Of a DNA stretch of 41,578 nucleotides, positions 5,601-26,060 are shown in pieces. A model generated the notes under the pieces. The model was not told the DNA's origin, searched no databases, and saw nothing but the letters and a program-made list of their open reading frames with translations. Origin of the DNA: an archaeon (lineage in GTDB: Archaea; Thermoproteota; Nitrososphaeria; Nitrososphaerales; Gagatemarchaeaceae); assembly GCA_021800855.1 (NCBI GenBank), contig JAJYYP010000007.1, positions 1 to 41,578 of the forward strand, written 5' to 3'. Every line of letters begins with the position of its first letter. Within the stretch, counting starts at the first letter, position 1. A program made the translations under genes and the position numbers.

Positions 5601-7224
5601 CTGAGTAGCAAGGCCACATTCGCGGAGATTTCGCCCTCAGAGTTCTTTCTACCGTAACCGCGACCTGGCCGGGTTCACAAACCCCGCGCGTGCCCTCTAC
5701 ATGGCCATCAGGGAACTTGTCGAGAACTCCCTAGACTCCACTGAGATGATTGGGACTCCGCCGGACATCTACGTCAGGATAACCGCCGAGGACCCTAATC
5801 TGTCGCTCCCAGACCCGAAGCCCTACAAACTCACCGTGGTCGACAACGGCACCGGGGTGGCGCCACAGCACGTCCCAAGCGCCTTCGGGAAGGTCTTCTA
5901 TGGGTCCAAGTACGTCCTGCGGCAGTCGCGTGGGATGTTCGGCCTAGGGGGGACCATGGCTATCCTCTACGGCCAGATCACCACCAACAAGCCTGTGATG
6001 ATCACGACCTCCCCCGACGGGAAGCGCAAGTACGGCTTCCAGATGATGATAGACATAGGGGAGAACAGACCCACAGTCCTGAAGCGATTCAACAGCGAGG
6101 CCAACGGCTCGACGGGGACCAGGGTGGACATCGTCCTCGAAGGCGACTATCTCCGCGCGTCCCAGAAGATAGGAGACTACTTCAAACAGACAGCGCTGGT
6201 GGCCAGCTACGCGAACCTGACGTTCGTCGACCCCACCGGCCAGATAACGTACTACGAAAGGGCGACCACATCGATGCCTTCCCCTCCCAAGGAGACGCTG
6301 CCGCATCCCTACGGCGTAGACGTCGAGGCATTCAAGCGGATAGTGAAGGTGTCTGAGGAGCACGACATGAAGACGTTCATGGTCACCCACTTCCACAGGG
6401 TGGGGGACAGAATAGCGACGAAGTTCCTTGAGTTCGCTGGAGTGAGCCCGAAACTTCCGCCGAAAAGGCTCAGCACAAACCAGATAGTCGCCGTGGTGGA
6501 CGCTCTACAGCGCTTCCCAGACTTCCTCCAGCCCGATGCCGCGGTGCTCTCGCCCATAGGCGAGGAGATACTCATGGCGGGGATAGCCAAGGAGCTCCAG
6601 CCCGAGTTCTCCACCGTTGTCATGAGGCCCCCCTCGTCGTACTCCGGCTTCCCTTTCTTGGTCGAGGTAGGGGTCGCTTACGGAGGGAAGATACTACAGC
6701 CAGGGGTCAAGCTCTTCAGGTTCGCGAACAGGATTCCGCTCCTATATGACGAGAGCTCAGACGTCAGCTTCGAGGTACTCAACGAGGAGGTTGACTGGCG
6801 AAGGTATCATGTCCCTGCCGACGCCCCCATCGGGGTGATAACGCACATTGCGAGTACCCGGATTCCTTACAAGACAGTCGGCAAGGAGTACATAGCTGAC
6901 AGGCCGGAGATTCAGAGGGAGATCAGGAACGCGGTGAGGGAGGCTCTGCGTAGGCTCGGCATCTTCCTGTCCCGCAAAGGGAGCATGGAAGCGGTCCAGA
7001 AGAAGATGAATATCTATGGGAAGTACCTCCCCCTGATTGCCCAGTTCTCAACCGAGCTGGCGGGGAAGAAATCGCTCCCGAAGTACAGGCAGCTCATAGG
7101 CAGGGAGTCCGACGCAGACGAGACTAATGAAGCCGGGATGCCAGAGGGGGGACCGGCGGGAGAAGCGGAGGGAGAAGATGTCAACCAAGAAGAGAGTAAA
7201 GAGGCAGTCGACAGGTTCAGCTGA
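5601..7224 (+). CDS. top6B: DNA topoisomerase VI subunit B; N-terminus disrupted by a 1-nt frame change near 5646-5649
   Basis: ALYMAIRELVENSLDSTEM, VVDNGTGVAPQHVPSAFGKVFYGSKY, RGMFGLGGTMAILYGQ; upstream FAEISPSEFF (frame 0) joins YRNRDLAGFTNPARA (frame 1). Confidence 0.93.
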
Positions 7225-9874
7225 GACGAGGCAGAACGCCGTTCAAGGGCTCCTGCACGAGCTGGGGGCGAGCATCTACACCGACTTGGACGAGGGTCGT
7301 TTCCCAAGCCTGACCCTGGCCAGCCGGTCGGTACGGAACATAGTATACGACAAGAAGCTGCAGCAGTTCGTCCTCGGCGCGACCACGGTGAAGAAGTCGT
7401 CAGGGAACATCAAACATATCCGTCCGTTCACTCAGCTGGTATGGCTCGCCTATTTCGCCAAGAAGCTGGTGGACGAGAAACGCACCTCGACGCTCAGGGA
7501 CGTGTTCTACTCTGCCCAGGCGTTCAACGTCGAGTTCCAGGACCAGGCCGAGTCTGACGAGCTGATCACCGACTTGGAGGTCCTGATGCAGATGGCGAGG
7601 GAGGGGATGAACATCTACCCCGAAGAGAGGAGCGCTATCTTCGGGAACATGACAATAGAGTATACCGTCCCGGGTTACGAGGGGAAGACCGCTGACCTCT
7701 CCGCGAACCCTGACGGGGTGATGATCGGACCGGCACTCACCACCGCTGAGTTCAGGGACACCGACGCGGAGGTCGTCCTGGCTATAGAGAAGGGCGGGCT
7801 TTTCACAAGGTTCATCGAGGAGAGGGTGCACCTGAAGTACAAGGCGATACTCATCAATACGGCAGGGCAACCCCCGAGGTCCACGCGGTTCCTCATCAGG
7901 CGGCTGAACCAGGAGCTCGGCCTCCCCGTCGGGATTCTCTGTGACGCTGACCCTTGGGGGGCCCACATAGCCATGGTGATAAAGTCAGGATCGGTGCAAA
8001 GGGATGAACCCATAGTGGTGAAGGATTCGAAAGGCAGGGTCCGCATCACCAAAATCGGGGAGTTCGTAGACGAATGCATCGCTAACTACGGCTACTACTA
8101 TGATTCCAATGGGAACGAGGTATGTGGTGCCATCCCGTTCGAAACACTCAGCGTCGACTCTGACCATAGGGTGCGCTTCAAGCCCATGTCGGCGGCAATC
8201 CGCCATCGCCATACCGGGCCGCTCTATCGGCTCTCAACTTCAAGCGGCAGGTCAGTCGTCGTGACACCTAACCATAGCGTCTTCGTATTGAGGGAGGGGC
8301 GGTTACAGGCAGTCCCGACGACCGAATTGACCACAGGGGACCTCTTGGTGATAGAAAGGGGCGCTTCTATCCAAAGGAGCCAGCCGGTGGCCGTCGACTC
8401 CATCCAGGAACTTCTGGCGCTCTCTAAGGAAGTTCCGATCCCTAAGCTACTCGTCCACATCCAAGATGGGCTTTCAAGATCCCGAAGCCGGAGAAGCCTC
8501 GAGGCCTTCGGGCAAGGAGTAAAGCAGCCTAAATCGAGCAGGCACCTCAACAGGTCGTTCGTCAGCTCTATGAGCGGCAGCGCGCCCGACATGTTGCCTG
8601 CTCGGATATGGCTCACCAAGGAGCTGGCCCGCCTCTTCGGATACTACATTTCAGGGGGAAGGATAGTGAAGGAGAACGGGGTCCCGACGGCTGTCGAGCT
8701 CTCGTTCGGACAGCACGAACTTGAGGTAGTCGACGATGCTGAGGCCTGCATCCGGGTGGCGTTTCCCCACGCTACCGTCAAAAGGATTGCCGACTTCCCG
8801 AGGAAAGGGGTAACCCTGCGGTATGGGGGCACCCCCACCGCATTGCTCTTCCTGAGGCTATGCGGAACTGGTTTCGCGCTTAAACGGATCCCCACGGTGA
8901 TGCTTTCTGCCAGAAGGGTGCATGTCTTAGAGTTCCTCAAAGGGTGTTTTGGCGACGGATACATCACAAATTCGGGGGGGTTGGTCTGGAAGATGAAGAA
9001 CCCAGATCTGATGTCAGACCTGGCCTACCTCATGGCCCAGAACGGCATTGCCTGTTCCATAGGAGGCGACAATGCCTCCCTAATCGTGTCGGGGGTCTCA
9101 GAGGTGCAAAAACTGGTCTCAACCGTACTCCACGACGACGATAGTGCTGCCATCGTTTCGCACATAGCATCGACCAGCCATAGCTCATACGCTATGCCCA
9201 AGGCCTTCCCCATAGTTTCCAGCGAGGTTGTCAATCTGAAGCGTGAGGTCGGAAAGCACGTACGGCACGATGCGAATTCCAGGAACTTGTACAGGATGAT
9301 ATGCGACGCGACCCGGTCTGGCAAGGAGCGCGGCACGGATAGGGATAACCTGTCTTCGGTTCTGCTGCATCTGCTTTCGTGCCAGTCCAGCTCCCTGGGT
9401 CCAGAAGGGGGCAAGTTGGTGAGGAGCCTTCAGGGGCTGGTCAAAGGGGATGTCGGCTTCGACCCCATCGTCAGCATCCAGCGGACACCTCCGGTAGACG
9501 AATACGTCTACGACGTCTCAGTCCCAGGGGTGGAACGCTTCATCGGAGGGCATTCCGGAATCCTCCTACACAACTCAGCTAACGCGGCCCACCTCCGGGA
9601 GCTGACCACCCCGAACTCGAAGTGGCTCGGGGTGTACGCTAGCGACATCCAGAAGTACAAACTACCATCGGACAAGCTGACAGAAGTCGACATCAAGCGG
9701 CTCTACGAGCTGAAGTCCGACCCGAGGTACACTGAGAAGATGTGGCACGACGAGCTCGAGACCTTCCTCAAGTACAAACGGAAGAGCGAGCAGGAGGCTT
9801 TCGCTAGGTACGGCCTCAGCTACATAGTGGACACCTATCTCCCTGAGAAGCTGGAGGCGATGAAGAGCACCTGA
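7178..9874 (+). CDS. top6A: DNA topoisomerase VI subunit A (Spo11-like) containing an intein
   Basis: N-extein STLRDVFYSAQAF and Toprim GILCDADPWGAHIAMVIKSG; C-extein SANAAHLRELTTPNSKWLGVYASDIQKYKLP; ATG 7178 overlaps top6B end. Confidence 0.95.
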   Translation: MSTKKRVKRQSTGSAETRQNAVQGLLHELGASIYTDLDEGRFPSLTLASRSVRNIVYDKKLQQFVLGATTVKKSSGNIKHIRPFTQLVWLAYFAKKLVDEKRTSTLRDVFYSAQAFNVEFQDQAESDELITDLEVLMQMAREGMNIYPEERSAIFGNMTIEYTVPGYEGKTADLSANPDGVMIGPALTTAEFRDTDAEVVLAIEKGGLFTRFIEERVHLKYKAILINTAGQPPRSTRFLIRRLNQELGLPVGILCDADPWGAHIAMVIKSGSVQRDEPIVVKDSKGRVRITKIGEFVDECIANYGYYYDSNGNEVCGAIPFETLSVDSDHRVRFKPMSAAIRHRHTGPLYRLSTSSGRSVVVTPNHSVFVLREGRLQAVPTTELTTGDLLVIERGASIQRSQPVAVDSIQELLALSKEVPIPKLLVHIQDGLSRSRSRRSLEAFGQGVKQPKSSRHLNRSFVSSMSGSAPDMLPARIWLTKELARLFGYYISGGRIVKENGVPTAVELSFGQHELEVVDDAEACIRVAFPHATVKRIADFPRKGVTLRYGGTPTALLFLRLCGTGFALKRIPTVMLSARRVHVLEFLKGCFGDGYITNSGGLVWKMKNPDLMSDLAYLMAQNGIACSIGGDNASLIVSGVSEVQKLVSTVLHDDDSAAIVSHIASTSHSSYAMPKAFPIVSSEVVNLKREVGKHVRHDANSRNLYRMICDATRSGKERGTDRDNLSSVLLHLLSCQSSSLGPEGGKLVRSLQGLVKGDVGFDPIVSIQRTPPVDEYVYDVSVPGVERFIGGHSGILLHNSANAAHLRELTTPNSKWLGVYASDIQKYKLPSDKLTEVDIKRLYELKSDPRYTEKMWHDELETFLKYKRKSEQEAFARYGLSYIVDTYLPEKLEAMKST
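7991..9574 (+). mobile_element. Intein in Topo VI subunit A (about 528 aa, Ser1...HN|Ser+1), with LAGLIDADG-like region
   Basis: KSG|SVQRDEPIVV start, block B-like GRSVVVTPNHSVFVL, DOD-like LARLFGYYISGGRI and VLEFLKGCFGDGYI, terminal VYDVSVPGVERFIGGHSGILLHN|S. Confidence 0.93.
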
Positions 9875-15780: not shown

Positions 15781-16950
15781 ATGTCGAAGCCGATTGTGAC
15801 CTTCGAAGGCTTCGTAAAACGGGTTATCGTCGTAGTAATCTTCCTGCTGTTGATCCTGGCCGTGGTCGGACTTCCAGTATACTATGTGGTGGGCTCCTAC
15901 CTGCACCTTCCGGTCGACTTCCTCAGGATAGCCAGCAACCCGGCCTTGGTCTTCGCATTTGCCCTTCACCTCCTCTCCATCGAGCCTTTCAAGACCGTCT
16001 TCGCCTTGGTCGTCTTCCCTGGCTTCTCGTTCGTCGCAATCTACGGTACCATCTTCATGGGGTGGGTCGAAAGGAAGATGACCGCAAAGATCCAGCTGAG
16101 GACAGGGCCGATGTATGCTGGGAAGGTCGAAGGGATCCTCCAGAACGTGGCCGACTTTCTCAAGCTCGCGTTCAAGGAGATGCTAATCCCCAACGGCGTG
16201 GACAAGGCGACGTTCGTGGCCGTCCCGCTCGCTCTAATGGCGGTGGCCGGAGCCCTCGTATCCCTCCTTCCGCTTTCCCCCACGGTATTCATCGCCAATC
16301 CTCCTGTGGGGGCAATCCTCGCCTTCGCCATCCTTGGGTTCACCCCCCTGGCGGTACTAGTCGCCGGATGGGCCAGCAACAGCAAGTTCCCCTTCCTGGG
16401 CGGACTGAGAGCGCTTCACCAGCTTGTAGCATACGAGATACCAATGATTCTCTCCCTGGTCGGGGTGGTGGTCCTGGCAGGCTCGCTGAACCTCATGGAC
16501 ATAGTCACCGCCCAGGCAGGGCTCTGGAACATCATCCCGGAGTTCCTGGCGGCGGTGGTCTTCTACATAGGGGCCCTGGCGGAGCTCGAACGGATACCGT
16601 TCGACCTGCCGGAGGCGGACAGCGAACTCGTGGCAGGTTGGCAGACGGAGTACTCGAGCATGCTCTTCGGTAGCTTCCAGTTGGCCAACTTCACGAGGAT
16701 GTACGTCATGGCCGGCCTTTTCACCACGTTCTTCCTCGGAGGCTGGCTGGGACCCGCTCCCGTCCCTCCAGTTGCCTGGTTCTTGATCAAGGTCACCATC
16801 GTCGACGTCTTCCTGATGCTCCCACGCAGCATAATGCCCAGGCTCAGAATCGACATGCTGCTCAGGGCGGGGTGGGTGAAGCTCCTCGCAGTCTCCTTCG
16901 CCAACATCTTCCTCACGATGGTCCTGGTCTCCCTCGGGGTGGTCCACTAG
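15781..16950 (+). CDS. nuoH: NADH-quinone oxidoreductase-like subunit H
   Basis: GWVERKMTAKIQLRTGPMYAG, SKFPFLGGLRALHQLVAYEIPM, ELERIPFDLPEADSELVAG. Confidence 0.96.
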   Translation: MSKPIVTFEGFVKRVIVVVIFLLLILAVVGLPVYYVVGSYLHLPVDFLRIASNPALVFAFALHLLSIEPFKTVFALVVFPGFSFVAIYGTIFMGWVERKMTAKIQLRTGPMYAGKVEGILQNVADFLKLAFKEMLIPNGVDKATFVAVPLALMAVAGALVSLLPLSPTVFIANPPVGAILAFAILGFTPLAVLVAGWASNSKFPFLGGLRALHQLVAYEIPMILSLVGVVVLAGSLNLMDIVTAQAGLWNIIPEFLAAVVFYIGALAELERIPFDLPEADSELVAGWQTEYSSMLFGSFQLANFTRMYVMAGLFTTFFLGGWLGPAPVPPVAWFLIKVTIVDVFLMLPRSIMPRLRIDMLLRAGWVKLLAVSFANIFLTMVLVSLGVVH

Positions 16951-18566
16951 TGGGGACTTTGGGCTACATCAAGGGGGTGCTAGTGGCGACCTGGTCTGGG
17001 GTGAGGCACTTCTTCCATCCCAGGATGACACTGCGCTATCCCGAACAGAAGCAGGACCTCGAGGGGCAAGGATACAGATACGACGCCAGGCAGGGGGTCG
17101 GGCTCCCCGGGTTCAAGGGGAGGCACATACTCAGGTTCGAGAAGTGCACCGGCTGCCAGCTCTGCGCGATAGCCTGTGACGGGGTCGCCGTTGCGATTGA
17201 CATGCAGAAGGTCGAGAAGGGGAAGCCACAGAACAAGAAGGAGATCTGGCCTGCCGTCGACTACGGTAGGTGCGTCCCGCCCTCCACCCCAATCATCACG
17301 ATAGACGGCGTCAAGCCGATGTCTGAAATTCGGGTGGGGGACAAGGTGCTCACCCACACCGGAAGGTTCAGGAAGGTCACTAGGCTGTTCAGCCGATTGT
17401 ACACCGGAAAGCTCTACACGTTCAAGACGCTGGGCAATTACGAGCCGCTGACTACGACTGAAGACCATCCCATACTTACTTACGGAGAGAATGGCATCTC
17501 ATGGGTCTTCGCCAACCAAATTGAACATCGAACATATCTTACTAGGCCCGTCATCGCCGAAGAGATGCCGCTCAACGAAATTCGCTTCACCTACGAGCTC
17601 TACCATCCTGCTGGCAGAGGGGGGTCTTTCACAGCAGAACTAGCCACGCTTCAGAGTACCCCTGAATTGATGAGGTTGATCGGTTACTATCTTGCGGAGG
17701 GCGCCTCTGACAGTTACCGGGTGTCATTCGACATCCATAACGAAGAATGTCTTAGAGACGACATCATCACTTGTATTTCGAAGGTTTTCGGGGAGAACGT
17801 CTCCCTGCAGCCTGACCCAGACTCCCTGGGTTTGAAGCTCGTCGTGGAATCGGTGCGCGTCGCTTCGTTCTTCTCTCAATTCGGCCGCGATAGCGAAGAC
17901 AAACAAGTTCGTTGGTGGATGGTTCTTCTGCCTGGAGAGAACATCAAGGAAATCATCAAAGGAGAATTCTTAGGTGACGGCCATTATTCAGACAGGTGTC
18001 ATCATCTCAAGACTGCGATGCATTCCGACCGCTTCACTATCCGGACAACGTCGAAGACGCTGGCTTTGCAAATACACCTCATGCTAGCCAGAGTCGGAAT
18101 ACTCTCCTCCATAAGCGCACAGAAACAGAAGGGCCGGAAGTCGTGCTATTCCGTGAGTGTCCACACGCCATACGTCAGGAAGATGGGAGAACTCGTAGGA
18201 GTCTCCACCCGGAGCGACGGAGTTTCCCACGACTACGTCCATCTCAGGGATGGCATGATCGTAACTCCCGTGACCAAGATCCAAGTTCAGGAAGTGAAGG
18301 ATTACCTCGTGCAGAACATCGAGGTCGAAGAGGACAACAGTTATGTCGCTGCAAACATTGCGGTCCATAACTGCGTCTTCTGCGGATTGTGTGTAGACGC
18401 CTGTCCTTTTGATGCGTTGGATATGACCAACGACTACGAGCTGGCCGCGTACGACAAGATGGGGCTGAAGTACACGCCGGACATGCTCGCCGTCCCACCG
18501 AAGCTTGAGGGGAAGAAGTACAAGGTGAAGTTCGACACCGAAAAGGGGGTGGTCACCTACGACTGA
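16950..18566 (+). CDS. nuoI: NADH-quinone oxidoreductase-like subunit I (two 4Fe-4S), interrupted by an intein
   Basis: GTG start overlapping nuoH stop; CTGCQLCAIAC (cluster 1) before intein and CVFCGLCVDACPFDAL (cluster 2) after it. Confidence 0.95.
   Translation: MGTLGYIKGVLVATWSGVRHFFHPRMTLRYPEQKQDLEGQGYRYDARQGVGLPGFKGRHILRFEKCTGCQLCAIACDGVAVAIDMQKVEKGKPQNKKEIWPAVDYGRCVPPSTPIITIDGVKPMSEIRVGDKVLTHTGRFRKVTRLFSRLYTGKLYTFKTLGNYEPLTTTEDHPILTYGENGISWVFANQIEHRTYLTRPVIAEEMPLNEIRFTYELYHPAGRGGSFTAELATLQSTPELMRLIGYYLAEGASDSYRVSFDIHNEECLRDDIITCISKVFGENVSLQPDPDSLGLKLVVESVRVASFFSQFGRDSEDKQVRWWMVLLPGENIKEIIKGEFLGDGHYSDRCHHLKTAMHSDRFTIRTTSKTLALQIHLMLARVGILSSISAQKQKGRKSCYSVSVHTPYVRKMGELVGVSTRSDGVSHDYVHLRDGMIVTPVTKIQVQEVKDYLVQNIEVEEDNSYVAANIAVHNCVFCGLCVDACPFDALDMTNDYELAAYDKMGLKYTPDMLAVPPKLEGKKYKVKFDTEKGVVTYD
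17271..18371 (+). mobile_element. Intein in NuoI (367 aa, Cys1...HN|Cys+1) with LAGLIDADG endonuclease motifs
   Basis: YGR|CVPPSTPIITIDGVKPMSEIRVGDKVLTHTGRFRKV; block B YEPLTTTEDHPIL; DOD motifs LMRLIGYYLAEGAS and IKEIIKGEFLGDGHY; end VEEDNSYVAANIAVHN|C. Confidence 0.97.
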
Positions 18567-18582: not shown

Positions 18583-19065
18583 ATGGCGGTCGTCACAGTC
18601 GGCGGGGCGATAGTGTCTCTGGAAGCAAAGGAGCTCGTCTACGGCGCCATCGGCCTCGCTGGCTCGCTGTTCGGGGTGGCCACGCTCTTCTTCCTACTAA
18701 ACGCCCCCTATGTGGCAGTGTTCCAGCTCGCGGTCTACATAGGGGCCGTGGCGGTCCTCATCCTGTTCACGGTGATGCTGGTGAGGCAGGAAGGCTGGGC
18801 CAAGGAGGTCAGGCCGAAGTCGACGATGTCCGTGGCCGGGGTGATCGCAGCGGTGGCGGTGATACTCACCCTGACGTTCGCCGTCCTGGCAACCGACCTC
18901 TCGAGATACACCGTAGTCGCCAACACCGCGACCTATGTCGACGTGGGCAGGCTCATCTCGACTGGCTACGCGCCCGTCCTGGAGGTGCTCGCCCTGGTCC
19001 TTGCCGCGTCCATCGTGGGCGCGCTTGCCCTCTCCAGGGTCGATAGGGAGGGGGACCCCAGCTGA
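18583..19065 (+). CDS. nuoJ: NADH-quinone oxidoreductase-like subunit J
   Basis: LLNAPYVAVFQLAVYIGAVAVLILFTVML. Confidence 0.93.
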   Translation: MAVVTVGGAIVSLEAKELVYGAIGLAGSLFGVATLFFLLNAPYVAVFQLAVYIGAVAVLILFTVMLVRQEGWAKEVRPKSTMSVAGVIAAVAVILTLTFAVLATDLSRYTVVANTATYVDVGRLISTGYAPVLEVLALVLAASIVGALALSRVDREGDPS

Positions 19066-19082: not shown

Positions 19083-19379
19083 GTGGTCGTCTCCGCCCTC
19101 CTCTTCGGCATAGGGGTCTACGGGCTGGTGACCAAACGGAACGCGATGAGGCTCCTCTTCGCAGTCGAGCTGATGATAAACGCTGCGAACCTCAACTTCG
19201 TGGCATTCAACCAGTACCTGCCGTACCAGGAGGCTAGCAACGCCGTAGGGCAGACCGTCGTCCTCTTCTCGATTGCCCTGGCCGCCGCCGAGGCCGCGGT
19301 GATACTGGCCATAGTAATCGTAGCGTACAGGTTGCACAACGACATCGACATGAGCGAGATGAAGACCCTGGAGGGATAG
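19083..19379 (+). CDS. nuoK: NADH-quinone oxidoreductase-like subunit K
   Basis: GVYGLVTKRNAMRLLFAVELMINAANLNFVAF...AAAEAAVILAIVI. Confidence 0.93.
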   Translation: MVVSALLFGIGVYGLVTKRNAMRLLFAVELMINAANLNFVAFNQYLPYQEASNAVGQTVVLFSIALAAAEAAVILAIVIVAYRLHNDIDMSEMKTLEG

Positions 19380-19440: not shown

Positions 19441-20949
19441 TTGACAGTGGAATACATCCTTCTCCAGACAGTGGCGGTGCCACTCGTGGCCGCCCCTGTC
19501 GTCCTCCTCCTCGGAAGGAAGCTCGGCCGTCACGTCGGCTGGATAGCGTTCGCGTCCCTCGTCTACACCACCTCGTTGCTCGCCTACCTCGCATCATCCC
19601 TGTTCAACGGGGGGGCAAGCGTGGCGGAGTCCTACACCTGGGCTCCGGTGTCGGGGCTGGTCTTCGGGTTCCTCGGGGACAACCTGAGTATCCCCGTGGC
19701 CCTGACGATGAACCTCATCGTCACTGCCACATCAGTCTATTCGATGGGGTACATGAAGCACCGGCTGGAGGCGATGTACGGGGAGGAGAGGAAGGGGCAG
19801 TATTCCCTCTACTTCCTCAACTTCATGCTCCTGGACGCCGGGCTGATAGGCATCTCGCTGTCCACAAACCTCCTGGAGCTGTACATGTTCCTCGAACTCA
19901 TGCTGATACCTTCTGCGTTCATGATGGCGCTCTTCGGGTACGTCAACAGAGAGCGCGTCGCCATCATGTATTTCCTCTGGAACCACCTCGGCGCCTTCAT
20001 CTTCCTCGCCGGCATCGTCGTCGTCTACACCGCAACTGGGAGCTTCCAGATATCGGCCCTCTCCACCATCCCGCTGGGGACCGTAGCCTACTGGGCCGTC
20101 GGCCTCATCCTCGTCGGGTGGCTCATCAAGATGGCGGTGTTCGGTGTCCACATGTGGCTCCCATACGCGCACGCAGAGCACCCGACCTCCTTCGCCCCCA
20201 TAATGGCAACCATCGTGGCGGTGGGGAACTACGTCGTGGTGAGGCTGCTGGTCGAAGGGATGCCTGCGGCCTTCCTCCCGTTCTCCTTCCCTCTGATGGT
20301 GATCGCACTGGTCACCATGGTGTTCGGCGGAGCCATGACCATGGTCCAGAACGACGTGAAGTACGTCTACGCATGGTCCACCATCAGCCAGAACGCGTAC
20401 TCGCTCCTGGGCATCGGGAGCCTCACCCTCCTCGGCGTGTCCGGGGGCGTGTTCTACTTCCTCAACCACATCATAGGAAAGACTATCCTCTTCTGCGTCG
20501 CAGGGATACTGGTCTCGCAGGTGGGGACCAGAGACATCCGCAAGATGGGTGGCCTGGCATCCAAGATGCCGCTCACAGCGGCCCTGGCTCTCATAGGGAC
20601 GATGGTGATCTCTGCCGTCCCTCCCACCGGTGGCTTCCAGGCCGAGTGGATACTGTTCGAGGGGGTCTTCGCCCGGGGCACGACAGGTGGCCTCGCTTGG
20701 AACTTCGTCGTCGCCATCGGAGGGCTCGCCGCGACCATCCTGACCGTGGCGTACACCTTCTGGCCGATACGCAAGATATTCTTCGGGCCCCTCGGCGCCG
20801 AGCTGCAAGGCGTCAAGGAGGCACCGCTGATCATGACCCTCCCCATCTTGTTCCTCGCCTTCCTCGCCATCGTCATAGGCATCTACCCTGACCTCCTCTT
20901 CAGGTCACTCTACCACTTCGCCAGCGGCATCGGGCTAGGAGTCCGCTGA
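19441..20949 (+). CDS. nuoM: NADH-quinone oxidoreductase-like subunit M (copy 1)
   Basis: LLELYMFLELMLIPSAFMMALFG, KMAVFGVHMWLPYAHAEHPTSFAPIMA, VKYVYAWSTISQNAY. Confidence 0.92.
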   Translation: MTVEYILLQTVAVPLVAAPVVLLLGRKLGRHVGWIAFASLVYTTSLLAYLASSLFNGGASVAESYTWAPVSGLVFGFLGDNLSIPVALTMNLIVTATSVYSMGYMKHRLEAMYGEERKGQYSLYFLNFMLLDAGLIGISLSTNLLELYMFLELMLIPSAFMMALFGYVNRERVAIMYFLWNHLGAFIFLAGIVVVYTATGSFQISALSTIPLGTVAYWAVGLILVGWLIKMAVFGVHMWLPYAHAEHPTSFAPIMATIVAVGNYVVVRLLVEGMPAAFLPFSFPLMVIALVTMVFGGAMTMVQNDVKYVYAWSTISQNAYSLLGIGSLTLLGVSGGVFYFLNHIIGKTILFCVAGILVSQVGTRDIRKMGGLASKMPLTAALALIGTMVISAVPPTGGFQAEWILFEGVFARGTTGGLAWNFVVAIGGLAATILTVAYTFWPIRKIFFGPLGAELQGVKEAPLIMTLPILFLAFLAIVIGIYPDLLFRSLYHFASGIGLGVR

Positions 20950-20951
20950 GC

Positions 20952-23093
20952 ATGGCTGCCGTCCCACTGCCGTCATATTTCGTCTGGCTAATCTTCATCC
21001 TCCCCTACGTGGGGACTGTGGCGGCGCCTCTGACAGGGAAGGGACGCGTCAGGGACGCAGTCGCGGTGCTCTTCCCCCTGCTTTCGGCCCTCTTCGCGCT
21101 AGACCTCCTGATCCCTGTGATCCGCGGCGACACAATATCGCTCGTCAACTCCATCATCCCGGCCTCCGTCCCTTGGATCCCGGAACTCGGCATCAGCTTC
21201 GGGGTCCTCTCCGACCCATATACGGTCATCATAGCGAACCTCGTCGCGTGGATCAGCTTCCTGGTGATGCTATACAGCGTGGACTACATGAAAGGAGACC
21301 GCGGGCTCACGCGATACTGGTTCTTCATGAACTTCTTCATAGGGAGCATGCAGCTCATCGTACTGTCGAACAACCTCCTGGGGCTCTTCATCGGGTGGGA
21401 GGGGGTGGGGCTTTGCAGTTACGCGCTCATCGGCTACTACTATCACGACGAGACTGAGAACTGGGTCGGGACGCCTGGGTCGACAGCGCTGGGGGAGGAG
21501 CAGGCATATCCTCCGTCTCACGCGGGGATGAAGGCATTCGTCATGACGAGGGTGGGGGACCTGGCCATGCTCGCCGGGATTCTCATCCTCTTCGTCTTCT
21601 CAGGGACCTTCAACTATCACGACCTGGCCACCTCCACCGGGTGGGCCACCGCCCTCGCGGCCTCGGGCCTCCTGGTCCCGGTCGCCCTCCTCATCTTCGG
21701 CGGGGCGGTAGGCAAGTCGGCCCAGTTCCCTCTCCAGGAGTGGCTCCCTGACGCCATGGCAGGTCCCGCCCCTGTGTCGGCGCTGATACACGCCGCGACC
21801 ATGGTAAACGCCGGGGTCGTACTCGTCGCCCGCATAGGCCCGATATTCTATTTCGCCCTCGCTTCCAACCCCGCCCTGATCCAGCCGTTCTTCATGGTGG
21901 TGGCCTGGATCGGGGCGTTCACCGCCTTCATGGCGGCCACCCAGGCCATGGTGGGCTTCGAACTGAAGAAGCTGCTCGCATACTCGACGGTGTCACAGAT
22001 AGGCTACATGATGCTGGCACTCGGCCTAGCCGGCCTGTCGACGAACTTCGCAGAAGGGCTGTCGGCCGGCTTGTTCCAGCTGATGAGCCACGCCATCTTC
22101 AAGGCGGCCCTCTTCCTGATGGCAGGATTCCTCATCCACCTCACCGGGACGAAGTACATCAACGAGATGGGCGGGCTGAAGGACAAGCTGAAGATCACAT
22201 TCTCCATCTTCCTCATAGCCGCGGCCGCTCTCTCCGGCATCCCTCCCCTCAGCGGGTTCTGGTCGAAGGACGCCATCCTGGCCACCGCCTGGGGGGCGGG
22301 GCAGTACGGTCTCTTCATCGTCGGATCGGCGACGGCGGGGCTCACGGCCTTCTACGCCTTCAGGATGCTCGGACTGGTGTTCTATGGCATCAGGGCAAAA
22401 CCTGGCGGCGGGGATACGGGGCACGAGCCGAGGGAACCGTCCCCGCTGAGCTGGGTTCCGTACTCCGTCCTCGGCGTCGGGACTGTCGTCATAGGGATCC
22501 TGGGGTTCTTCAACCTCGGTAACTTCCTGCAGGCTTCAGCCATCACGTACATCTACTCCCTCTTCTCCGGAGCATCGTTCTCAACCCTCAGTCCGACATC
22601 TCCGTTCAACTACACCTCCTCCCTGATTACTATCGGCTTTGTCATCATGGGGCTGTTCTTCTCGATTCAGCTGTACGTGAGGCGGAAGCTCCCTCCATCG
22701 CGAATCGTCGGGGGGTCGAAGCTTGCCGGGGGGGTCCACAGGTTCCTCGAGAACCGCTGGTACATCAACGCCGTCTACTACAAGGTCTTCGTCAACGCCC
22801 CCCTGAGGGCGTCCTACTGGGCCTTCGACAACCTCGAAGTAGGGGGCCTGGAGAGGGTGAACGACGGGGCCAGGGCGCTCGCCATGTGGTTCTCGGCGGG
22901 GGGAAACTGGTTCGACAGGAACGTGATTGACCTGGTCTCAAACGGCGCCGCGGGTTCCGGTCAGCGGCTCTCCAGGGCCTTCCGCAGGCTGCAGACGGGG
23001 GTCCTCGAGCAGTACGCCCTCGTCCTTGCCGTGGGCCTCATCATACTCCTGCTGCTCTTCCTGCTGCTGTCGGGGGTGCGCCTGCTGATATGA
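20952..23093 (+). CDS. nuoL: NADH-quinone oxidoreductase-like subunit L
   Basis: NLLGLFIGWEGVGLCSYALIGYYY, GKSAQFPLQEWLPDAMAGPAPVSALIHAATMVNAGV, KKLLAYSTVSQIGYMMLALG. Confidence 0.95.
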   Translation: MAAVPLPSYFVWLIFILPYVGTVAAPLTGKGRVRDAVAVLFPLLSALFALDLLIPVIRGDTISLVNSIIPASVPWIPELGISFGVLSDPYTVIIANLVAWISFLVMLYSVDYMKGDRGLTRYWFFMNFFIGSMQLIVLSNNLLGLFIGWEGVGLCSYALIGYYYHDETENWVGTPGSTALGEEQAYPPSHAGMKAFVMTRVGDLAMLAGILILFVFSGTFNYHDLATSTGWATALAASGLLVPVALLIFGGAVGKSAQFPLQEWLPDAMAGPAPVSALIHAATMVNAGVVLVARIGPIFYFALASNPALIQPFFMVVAWIGAFTAFMAATQAMVGFELKKLLAYSTVSQIGYMMLALGLAGLSTNFAEGLSAGLFQLMSHAIFKAALFLMAGFLIHLTGTKYINEMGGLKDKLKITFSIFLIAAAALSGIPPLSGFWSKDAILATAWGAGQYGLFIVGSATAGLTAFYAFRMLGLVFYGIRAKPGGGDTGHEPREPSPLSWVPYSVLGVGTVVIGILGFFNLGNFLQASAITYIYSLFSGASFSTLSPTSPFNYTSSLITIGFVIMGLFFSIQLYVRRKLPPSRIVGGSKLAGGVHRFLENRWYINAVYYKVFVNAPLRASYWAFDNLEVGGLERVNDGARALAMWFSAGGNWFDRNVIDLVSNGAAGSGQRLSRAFRRLQTGVLEQYALVLAVGLIILLLLFLLLSGVRLLI

Positions 23094-24586
23094 TGCCAGT
23101 GCTATCGATACTACTGTTTCTCCCCATAGCGGCGTCCGTCCCGGCCTACCTCATTCTCAGATGGCGCAAGTCGGCGGGGTTGTGGTTCACCCTCGCCGTG
23201 GCCCTGGCTGAGCTCGTCATCGCGCTGTACGTCTTCTACTTCGTCTATGCCAACTTTTCCGGCCTGGGCCACTCGGGACTCGGGGCGTATGCCTTGGCTG
23301 AGCAGTACAGCTGGGTGAGCGTGGCGTCCTTCGGGGTGAACTATCTGGTTGGTGTGGACGGGCTTAGCTCTCCTCTGGTGCTGGCGACCGCCCTACTGAC
23401 GGTCTTCGCGGTGATCGGATCGAGGAGGCTGATAGACCGGTCGGAGCCAGCATACTATTCGCTCATCCTCCTCTTCGAAGGGGCGATCATCGGCGTCTTC
23501 CTGTCCTTGAACCTCATACTGTTCTACTTCTTCTGGGACCTGGTCATGATTCCCATGTTCTTCCTGATCGGGATCTGGGGAGGAGACAGGCGCAAGTACG
23601 CAGCAATGAAATTCATGATATTCATCTTCACCGGGAGCATGATCCTCCTCCTAGCCCTGATGGCGGCTTACATGGGGGTCAGCCCTACGACCTTCGACAT
23701 CCCGAGCCTGGCGGGACGGATCCCTGCTTCCATCCAGTATCTGCCGCTGTTAGCGTCTTTCATCGGCTTCGGCATCAAGCTCCCTGTCTTCCCGCTCCAC
23801 AGCTGGCTTCCGGACGCCTACACCCAGGCGCCCGCCCCTGTCGCGGTGCTCCTCGCAGGGGTGCAGTCTGCCATGGGAGGGTACGGGATCATCAGGATCA
23901 GCATCGGGCTCTTCCCGCAGGCCGCTGAGCAGTGGGCTTGGGCATTCATGACAGTAGGGATAGTGACTATGTTCTACGGCGCAGCCGTCGCCATACTCTC
24001 CAAGAACCTGAGGTCGATGTTCGCCTACACGAGCATCGCGGGGATGGGCTTCGTCGTCCTTGGCTCCTTCGCGTCCGTCGCGTCGGGGAGCATCATAGGG
24101 ATGCAAGGGGCCATACTCGAGATGTTCGTGCACGCCTTTACAGCCGGGTCCCTCTTCATGCTCGCTGGCTACATACAGAAGGGGCTCGGCACCACGGACA
24201 TCTCTCTGATGAACGGCCTGCGGAGCGTGATCCCGCGGGCGGGGACGCTCCTGGTCTTTGCATGCGTAGCGGCTATGGCGCTCCCTCCCTTCGGGAGCTT
24301 CGTAGCCGAGGTTCTGGTGATTGTGGGTGGGATCCATGCCACCCCCTACGCCGCAGTCGCCATACTCGTCCCGGTGATTATAGGAGGGTACATGCTGTGG
24401 ATGATCAAGCGTGCCGTGCTGTCGCCGCCGACCCCGGGGGCTGCGGGGGGGGACATGCACGGGGTGGACGCGGCAGTCCTGGGCCTCTATTTCGTGCCGT
24501 TGATCATCATGCTGTTCTTCTCCATCCTCGTGCTGGGGCCCTCGGCCCCGGTCGTGCAGCACCTGCTCCAGCTGGTGAGCCACTAG
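23090..24586 (+). CDS. nuoM: NADH-quinone oxidoreductase-like subunit M (copy 2)
   Basis: LILFYFFWDLVMIPMFFLIGIWGG, KLPVFPLHSWLPDAYTQAPAPVAVLLAGVQSAMGGYG. Confidence 0.93.
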   Translation: MMPVLSILLFLPIAASVPAYLILRWRKSAGLWFTLAVALAELVIALYVFYFVYANFSGLGHSGLGAYALAEQYSWVSVASFGVNYLVGVDGLSSPLVLATALLTVFAVIGSRRLIDRSEPAYYSLILLFEGAIIGVFLSLNLILFYFFWDLVMIPMFFLIGIWGGDRRKYAAMKFMIFIFTGSMILLLALMAAYMGVSPTTFDIPSLAGRIPASIQYLPLLASFIGFGIKLPVFPLHSWLPDAYTQAPAPVAVLLAGVQSAMGGYGIIRISIGLFPQAAEQWAWAFMTVGIVTMFYGAAVAILSKNLRSMFAYTSIAGMGFVVLGSFASVASGSIIGMQGAILEMFVHAFTAGSLFMLAGYIQKGLGTTDISLMNGLRSVIPRAGTLLVFACVAAMALPPFGSFVAEVLVIVGGIHATPYAAVAILVPVIIGGYMLWMIKRAVLSPPTPGAAGGDMHGVDAAVLGLYFVPLIIMLFFSILVLGPSAPVVQHLLQLVSH

Positions 24587-24587
24587 G

Positions 24588-26060
24588 ATGGAGTTCATAC
24601 TAGCAGCCGTCGTCGCGCTGAGCGCGGCCGCCCTGGGTTCCCCCCTCCTGCAGGCGGCGGGGCGCAGGCTCAAGGCGAGCGCCTACGCGTCCATAGCAGC
24701 CCTGGTGGTCGCCATAGCGATGGTGGCCGCGAACACTGCGTACGGAGGGAGCGTCTCCTACTTCGGCCGCCTGCTCGTCTCGGACGTCCTGGGGGACCTG
24801 TTCGCCCTCGTCGTCCTCTCGGTGTCGCTCGCTGTGGCAGTCGTCTCGGTGTACTCTTCCCACAGTTCCCAGAACATGCCGTCCTACTATTCGCTCCTGT
24901 TGTTCTCCGCGCTGGGGATGCTGCTACTCTCTTACTCCGCCGACCTGCTCATGCTGTTCGTCGCCTGGGAGCTGATGAGCCTGCCCACCTACGTCCTGGC
25001 GGGCTTTGACAAGAAGAGGGCGGAATCCAACGAGGCAGCAGCGAAGTACGCCATCCTCGGCGCCCTGTCGTCGGCCATTATCCTCTACGCGATTAGCCTG
25101 ACCTATGGCGTGACCGGCACCACCCAGATTTCAGGGGTCGTGGCCAAGATGGCTTCCGAGCCCTTCAACCCGCTCTTCAGCGTCGCCATCCTCCTCTTCA
25201 TCGTAGGGTTTGGGTTCAAGATGTCGATAGTCCCGTTCCACATGTGGGTCCCAGACGCCTACGAGGGGGCTCCCCCGGCAGTCGCCACGCTGTTCGCGAC
25301 GGCGACCAAGAAGGCGGGGTTCGTGGCAGCCATCAGGGTGGTTCTGGCGATAGCTACGGTCTACGCCCTGGCGCCTAACTCGGTCTTCACGTTGGCCAAC
25401 GTCTTTGCGGTTCTCGCCGTCGTCACCATGACCCTAGGGAACGTCGCCGCACTGACGCAGAAGAGCATGACCAGGCTCCTCGCCTACTCAAGCATCGCCC
25501 AGGCTGGATACATCCTCGTGGGCTTCGCCATCTTCGCCTACAGCCAGCAGACGGGCCTGTACACCTACAACGCAGTGCTCGGGATGACCGGTTCCCTGTT
25601 CCACATAGTCAACCACGCGATAATGAAGGGGGCCGCCTTCCTTGCGGCGACGCTGGTGCTCATCCAGCTGAAGAGGAGCGACCTAGACATCTACAACGGC
25701 CTTGCGAAGAGGATGCCCATCACGGCGTTCACCCTCGCCATCTCCTTCCTCGCTCTCGGGGGGATTCCCCCGCTGAACGGCTTCTGGAGCAAGCTCCTCT
25801 TGTTCCTGTCCGTCATCAACACCCCGCTCGCCTGGGTCGCAGTCGCTGCGATACTAAACAGCGCATTCAGCCTCGGCTACTACTTCTGGGTCATCAAGAG
25901 GATGTACCTAGACCAGGGCGAGAGCACGGAGAGGGTGAACGAGCCCTTCGGCTTCGTCGTCATCTTCGCTGTGCTGGTCGGGCTGATGATTGGAATAGGC
26001 CTCTTCCCCCAGCAGTTCATCGCCTTCGCACACGCAGCGGCCTCAAGTCTATTCACGTAG
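24588..26060 (+). CDS. nuoN: NADH-quinone oxidoreductase-like subunit N
   Basis: LLMLFVAWELMSLPTYVLAGFDKKRAESNEAAAKYAILGALSSAI, SIVPFHMWVPDAYEGAPPAVATLFATATKKAGF. Confidence 0.94.
   Translation: MEFILAAVVALSAAALGSPLLQAAGRRLKASAYASIAALVVAIAMVAANTAYGGSVSYFGRLLVSDVLGDLFALVVLSVSLAVAVVSVYSSHSSQNMPSYYSLLLFSALGMLLLSYSADLLMLFVAWELMSLPTYVLAGFDKKRAESNEAAAKYAILGALSSAIILYAISLTYGVTGTTQISGVVAKMASEPFNPLFSVAILLFIVGFGFKMSIVPFHMWVPDAYEGAPPAVATLFATATKKAGFVAAIRVVLAIATVYALAPNSVFTLANVFAVLAVVTMTLGNVAALTQKSMTRLLAYSSIAQAGYILVGFAIFAYSQQTGLYTYNAVLGMTGSLFHIVNHAIMKGAAFLAATLVLIQLKRSDLDIYNGLAKRMPITAFTLAISFLALGGIPPLNGFWSKLLLFLSVINTPLAWVAVAAILNSAFSLGYYFWVIKRMYLDQGESTERVNEPFGFVVIFAVLVGLMIGIGLFPQQFIAFAHAAASSLFT

Follow-up and report, generated by a model that had tools for sequence, protein, structure and literature searches.

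The gene for NuoI, an iron–sulfur subunit of complex I, is interrupted in an uncultured archaeon of Thaumarchaeota/Nitrososphaerales type (family Gagatemarchaeaceae) by a 367-residue insert that, with high confidence, is a full-length class-1 intein carrying a LAGLIDADG homing endonuclease, predicted both to splice and to home. In the window (the whole 41,578-nucleotide stretch of contig JAJYYP010000007.1 that was analysed), the insert keeps the reading frame and separates Arg107 of NuoI from the first ligand cysteine of its second CxxCxxC motif, a position that we call site a (Table 1). The best-supported reading is that the intein homes, or did so until recently, and that splicing limits what it costs the host. 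The element is of a recognisable kind, and its host site is apparently undescribed in the open-access literature.

Table 1. Features of the interrupted nuoI gene and its neighbours (positions in the window; slashes here and in the text mark splice junctions).
Feature	Position	Strand	Basis
nuoH	15781–16950	+	Pfam NADHdh, 2.5e-94
NuoI N-extein, 107 residues, GTG start, last residues DYGR	16950–17270	+	translation, NuoI profiles
First cluster motif CTGCQLCAIAC (C66, C69, C72, C76)	17145–17177	+	translation
Intein, 367 residues, site a, CVPPSTPI...IAVHN	17271–18371	+	translation, profiles, predicted fold
Catalytic Cys1, block A	17271–17273	+	invariant in 36 related inteins
Block B TxxH (T63, H66)	17457–17468	+	both invariant in 36 related inteins
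LAGLIDADG motif 1, LIGYYLAEG, acidic E143	17676–17702	+	translation, alignment
LAGLIDADG motif 2, FLGDG (FLGDGH), acidic D236	17967–17981	+	translation, alignment
Block G, penultimate His366 and terminal Asn367, VHN/C with Cys at +1	18366–18371	+	translation, alignment
NuoI C-extein, 64 residues and stop, opens with the +1 Cys	18372–18566	+	translation
Second cluster motif CVFCGLCVDAC (precursor C475, C478, C481, C485)	18372–18404	+	translation
Site b position, before the third ligand Cys	18389–18390	+	empty in the window, filled in relatives
nuoJ	18583–19065	+	NCBIfam
nuoK-like ORF	19083–19379	+	name from reading and position only
M-like subunit, nuoL, nuoM, nuoN	19441–26060	+	NCBIfam

The host is identified as NuoI by its two CxxCxxCxxxC motifs, with all eight cysteines present, and by its place in a complex I operon that is intact around the intein, in the order H-I-J-K(-like)-M'(M-like)-L-M-N. 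In translation, the nuoI reading frame runs from a GTG at 16950, which shares one base with the nuoH stop codon, to a stop ending at 18566. The cysteines of the first cluster motif are invariant among 27 NuoI sequences, and directly after the intein the C-extein resumes with CVFCGLCVDACP. Removal of the insert produces a single continuous NuoI match: TIGR01971, the best family for the host, scores 88.7 bits over two separate pieces with the insert and 100.3 bits over one piece without it, the joined score lying below the family cut-off of 113. Solved NuoI chains align across the junction of the joined exteins, and the intein-free nuoI genes of sister species are uninterrupted through the insertion site. 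The genome to which the window belongs, 91% complete, yielded no second, intein-free nuoI; the third match, on C63, is weak, 32 residues long and of ferredoxin type. With only one nuoI found, complex I, if used, must depend on splicing in this organism, although the genomes are apparently environmental assemblies, in which nuoI copy number is uncertain.

The initial annotation, made from the letters alone, had placed an intein in NuoI directly before the second 4Fe-4S motif with a ligand cysteine at +1. Its boundaries are exact: the translation reads YGR/C...HN/C, and profiles, predicted fold and splice residues agree. The profile check that it had proposed returned Pfam LAGLIDADG_3 (PF14528) above cut-off (E = 8e-8), Pfam Intein_splicing under its curated cut-off of 35.8 bits (E = 6e-6) and NCBIfam intein_Nterm narrowly under its own (E = 1e-4). 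In an alignment of 36 related inteins, the terminal Asn367 is invariant, as are Cys1, T63 and H66. Both LAGLIDADG motifs do keep their acidic residues (E143 and D236), as had been claimed. At the block F position, Asn stands in place of the usual Asp (family consensus VxNLEV, n = 36, register set by eye), so splicing kinetics may be unusual. An AlphaFold2 model of the intein (pLDDT 91.3, pTM 0.89) had the TliVMA homing-endonuclease intein as its top Foldseek match (E = 2e-22), with PI-SceI and PI-PfuI also matched; the predicted fold thus agrees with the HINT fold of solved inteins. A chance open reading frame or a non-intein domain is ruled out by the fold, the splice residues and the existence of intein-free relatives.

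On this anatomy, exteins and intein would be translated together as a precursor of 538 residues. Cys1 would attack the bond between Arg107 and Cys108, the N-extein would be transferred onto Cys+1, with which the ligands of the second 4Fe-4S motif begin, and cyclisation of Asn367 would release the intein to leave a normal NuoI of 171 residues, able to bind both clusters afterwards. The endonuclease would in turn cut intein-free copies of nuoI, and repair from an occupied copy would spread the element. The initial annotation had argued that assembly of the second cluster should require splicing. The +1 residue, Cys475 of the precursor, does stand first among the ligands of the second motif, but the claim named one cluster too few: in 2[4Fe-4S] ferredoxins the ligands are usually swapped, each cluster having three of its cysteines in one motif and drawing the fourth from the other. 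Both NuoI clusters, and not just the second, should therefore span the intein junction. We infer that splicing would have to precede cluster assembly. In a predicted model of a two-intein precursor from a relative (G032), both inteins are well folded and the extein halves are unfolded (pLDDT <50); this model, which has no intein-free control, is consistent with a need for splicing.

The intein is widespread among close relatives. Of the 46 genomes in the family, 10 have no readable NuoI, and in 28 of the other 36 the protein carries one or more inteins, so the window copy is no singleton. Site a alone is occupied in 15 of the 36, a second site (b) alone in 8, both in 5 and neither in 8; one genome with 8% contamination (G009), in which an a+b copy stands beside an a-only copy, is counted as a. 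Site b lies six residues (18 bases) after site a, at CVFCGL/C...(S or H)N/CVDACP. Five precursors (L033, L039, L047, L048 and L054) hold two inteins separated by six extein residues (CVFCGL or CVFCAL), each intein preceding a cluster-ligand cysteine. Site b is also filled outside the family (G497), and in three genomes of another family (f79) a NuoI-like subunit has an intein at the equivalent place. Across 84,980 species genomes, a scan for the DNA pattern HN/C[VIM]xCG[LF]C, which is blind to inteins not ending in HN and to NuoI with CGMC, gave 22 matches, namely 20 NuoI inteins and 2 chance hits. All 20 are from archaeal metagenome-assembled genomes, 19 of them labelled Thaumarchaeota, Nitrososphaerota/Nitrososphaerales or plain 'archaeon' and one Aigarchaeota. 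In Aigarchaeota-type NuoI proteins (L030, L113), the two 4Fe-4S motifs are separated, besides the intein, by some 110 additional residues or more.

Extein and intein histories conflict, and by sequence comparison the NuoI intein behaves as a mobile element. Between genomes G000 and G014, exteins are 96% identical in residues and inteins 49%; between G018 and G013, the exteins are 85% identical and the inteins 94%. In the latter pair, the DNA of the intein matches at 95% of positions and that of neighbouring genes at 78–80%, with intermediate values in the adjoining flanks (93% over the first 60 bases on the 3' side, 88% over the last 60 on the 5' side). This profile is of the kind that recent horizontal transfer by homing, with co-conversion of the flanks, would be expected to leave, the endonuclease presumably having cut an empty site. 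Mapped onto the extein DNA tree, the four occupancy states (none, a, b, ab) require 14 changes, against a mean of 14.7 for shuffled labels, and 83 of 200 shuffles did equally well.

The closest relatives of the intein, from searches of the phylum and class, sit in other Fe–S proteins at cysteines whose ligand role at +1 we take from motifs and general knowledge rather than from their structures. They interrupt ABCE1/Rli1 (CIGCGI/C...HN/CVKKCP), the beta subunit of 2-oxoacid:ferredoxin oxidoreductase (OFOR; WCxG/C...HN/CGDFG), the scaffold IscU/NifU (NP[VI]/C...HN/CGDL) and a B12-type radical-SAM protein, at its third Cys; the intein in an AmmeMemoRadiSam enzyme of the window's own genome also belongs here. 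The first relatives outside Fe–S hosts are in S-adenosylmethionine synthetase, a Hel308-type helicase and topoisomerase I. Because ABCE1, OFOR beta, IscU and two radical-SAM proteins are all entered at [4Fe-4S]-ligand cysteines, the lineage may favour such residues. In a careful tree, the inteins of NuoI sites a and b, the NuoI-like subunit and ABCE1, all at Cys1 or Cys3 of a ferredoxin-type CxxCxxC, form one clade with support 100/99; a wider clade that adds the OFOR, IscU, radical-SAM, SAM-synthetase and helicase inteins has support 94/85.

We compared sites in a set of 73 inteins at 45 sites, assembled from BLAST relatives and a Pfam PF14890 census of 300 phylum genomes, using for the counts the clade that contains the window intein in a larger quick tree. 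Within this clade 8 of 11 sites are Fe–S sites, compared with 3 of 34 among the rest (p = 1e-4), and 5 of 8 compared with 3 of 34 when NuoI-type hosts are excluded (p = 0.003), in a census that is biased to high PF14890 scores, where sites in the same host are non-independent and several tests were run. An Fe–S ligand site necessarily has Cys at +1, which makes a comparison among Cys+1 sites the fair control; there, with counts made by eye, the proportions are 8 of 10 against 3 of 10 (p = 0.035), or 5 of 7 against 3 of 10 excluding NuoI-type hosts (p = 0.12). A nearest-neighbour test of the Fe–S label gave P = 0.001 but is weakened by sampling: the Fe–S relatives were collected by their similarity to the window intein and the others through PF14890, and we therefore prefer the Fisher comparisons. 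The enrichment is a lead, and not as such shown.

Two explanations of this pattern compete. There is about an even chance that it involves no lineage preference, and that inteins with Cys at +1 settle at invariant cysteines, which in archaea are often Fe–S ligands. The shrinking of the excess among Cys+1 sites fits this account, as does the presence of other intein branches at Fe–S cysteines (in Tes, NuoB and CdhA); the unrestricted counts and the 100/99 clade at ferredoxin-type motifs speak against it. The second explanation, possible but one that we hold only tentatively, is that a single archaeal lineage has specialised on [4Fe-4S]-cysteine codons, its endonuclease tolerating CxxCxxC sequences and jumping among unrelated Fe–S genes (NuoI, ABCE1 and others), with cluster chemistry perhaps gating splicing, chiefly at sites with a cysteine at -3. 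A viral source was also considered and rejected, as relatives on viral contigs or in phages are about 21–30% identical over long stretches, at sites that, where read, are not recognisable as Fe–S. Five loci on viral contigs (L266, L286, L289, L302 and L340) carry related phage inteins at a common site, VSMG/C...(H or K)N/C followed by CxxC, perhaps zinc-binding.

The initial annotation had further speculated that the intein is a redox- or metal-sensitive switch on respiration. In such a switch, oxidation, iron or zinc at Cys1 or Cys+1 would restrain NuoI maturation. In the MoaA redox trap, an extein cysteine at -3 forms a CxxC with Cys1. Precedents exist in the Pyrococcus abyssi MoaA intein, where splicing is blocked once an N-extein Cys pairs with Cys1 in a disulfide (PMC10663303), and in the mycobacterial DnaBi1 intein, where an internal disulfide has the same effect (PMC6195587). 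The +1 residue of the NuoI intein is itself a metal ligand, and site b of relatives has the extein Cys at -3, as do the ABCE1, OFOR and radical-SAM sites. Against a switch, the N-extein Cys at -3 is absent from the window's site a, where Tyr-Gly-Arg precedes Cys1, making this the site at which a switch is least likely; the catalytic Cys1 is the only invariant cysteine across 36 aligned inteins; and sister species have no intein at all, occupancy being random on the extein tree, unlike that expected of a selected switch. No observation positively supports or needs the idea, which we consider very unlikely and which the scattered occupancy in close relatives does not favour.

Returning to the homing intein, purifying selection acts on both partners. 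Pairwise dN/dS is 0.04–0.14 for exteins, which are thus under strong purifying selection, 0.06–0.32 for inteins and 0.05–0.42 for the endonuclease region, which is also constrained. The listed intein copies of relatives are open frames with no internal stops, and the endonuclease acids are kept in nearly all single-site copies, the exception at site a being FK2b78 (E to A). That splicing has been lost, leaving NuoI and hence complex I non-functional in the lineage, is scarcely credible: the block F change from Asp to Asn would fit, but the catalytic residues are invariant in 36 inteins, inteins and exteins are constrained, the copies listed have no stops and the surrounding operon is intact. 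Copies of 172–182 residues that lack the endonuclease (L039, L048 and L054) occur at site a only alongside an occupied site b, in 3 of 5 double against 0 of 12–13 single genotypes (p about 0.012–0.015, the genotypes being few and related), and the domain was lost at site a at least twice independently. Decay driven by double occupancy was set aside on account of these few and related genotypes. The short site-a inteins are good candidates for splicing studies.

Like the VMA-type archaeal inteins TliVMA and PhoVMA, and like PI-SceI and PI-PfuI, the NuoI intein holds a LAGLIDADG endonuclease inside a splicing domain, but it is 13–18% identical to them and occupies another host protein and site. 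The haloarchaeal MCM-a and MCM-d inteins (PMC10643990) resemble the NuoI inteins in that they occupy neighbouring sites of a single gene, are patchily distributed, are often transferred and include some copies without endonuclease; the NuoI sites differ in being 18 bases apart, both within one 4Fe-4S motif. With the P. abyssi MoaA intein, the NuoI intein shares an archaeal oxidoreductase host and a cysteine-rich site, and site b of NuoI relatives also has an extein Cys at -3, whereas site a of the window has no such Cys. Tes, SufB and RtcB inteins also have archaeal Fe–S or metal proteins as hosts, and in Tes, as at NuoI site b, the insertion precedes the third cluster-motif Cys, but these inteins fall on separate branches in trees.

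Some NCBIfam models, for Tes and for proteins related to RtcB, include an intein; none of the matches shown is such a model for NuoI. In open-access full text, we found no paper that contains both 'intein' and 'NuoI', nor, in the open-access literature, any NuoI intein described under related terms; in the open-access papers found by these searches, respiratory complex I has no role as an intein host. The initial annotation had called NuoI an unfamiliar host, and this holds for the open-access papers searched and the NCBIfam matches shown, but within its own archaeal family the intein is common, with a core Fe–S subunit interrupted in most members at two sites within one cluster motif. Naturally occurring versions with no intein, with one, with two and without the endonuclease offer material to test the interdependence of splicing and Fe–S assembly, the double ones also being a test bed for the splicing of inteins six residues apart. 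With the NuoI set it can further be tested whether homing endonucleases pass from one gene to an unrelated one when the two have a short coding motif in common.

Other inteins were seen along the way. The window holds a second one at 7994–9577, of 528 residues with Ser at +1 (Intein_splicing 4e-18), in topoisomerase VI subunit A (ORF 7127–9874). Further inteins in the same 1.45 Mb genome (L001, L003, L007 and L008) interrupt a GlmS-like protein, the AmmeMemoRadiSam enzyme, a RadA-like protein and a Hel308-type helicase, the GlmS-like, RadA-like and Hel308-type names having been read by eye. In another genome (G633), CdhA, the CO dehydrogenase alpha subunit, carries a mini-intein (L136) at CDLCCL/C...QN/CTFGKC, probably an Fe–S ligand site, that ends in Gln-Asn instead of His-Asn. 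A NuoB intein (L235, in G512) at AMGA/C...HN/CAISGG precedes what is by motif a ligand of the N2 cluster, and its closest match in the set is a SufB intein, at 155 bits.
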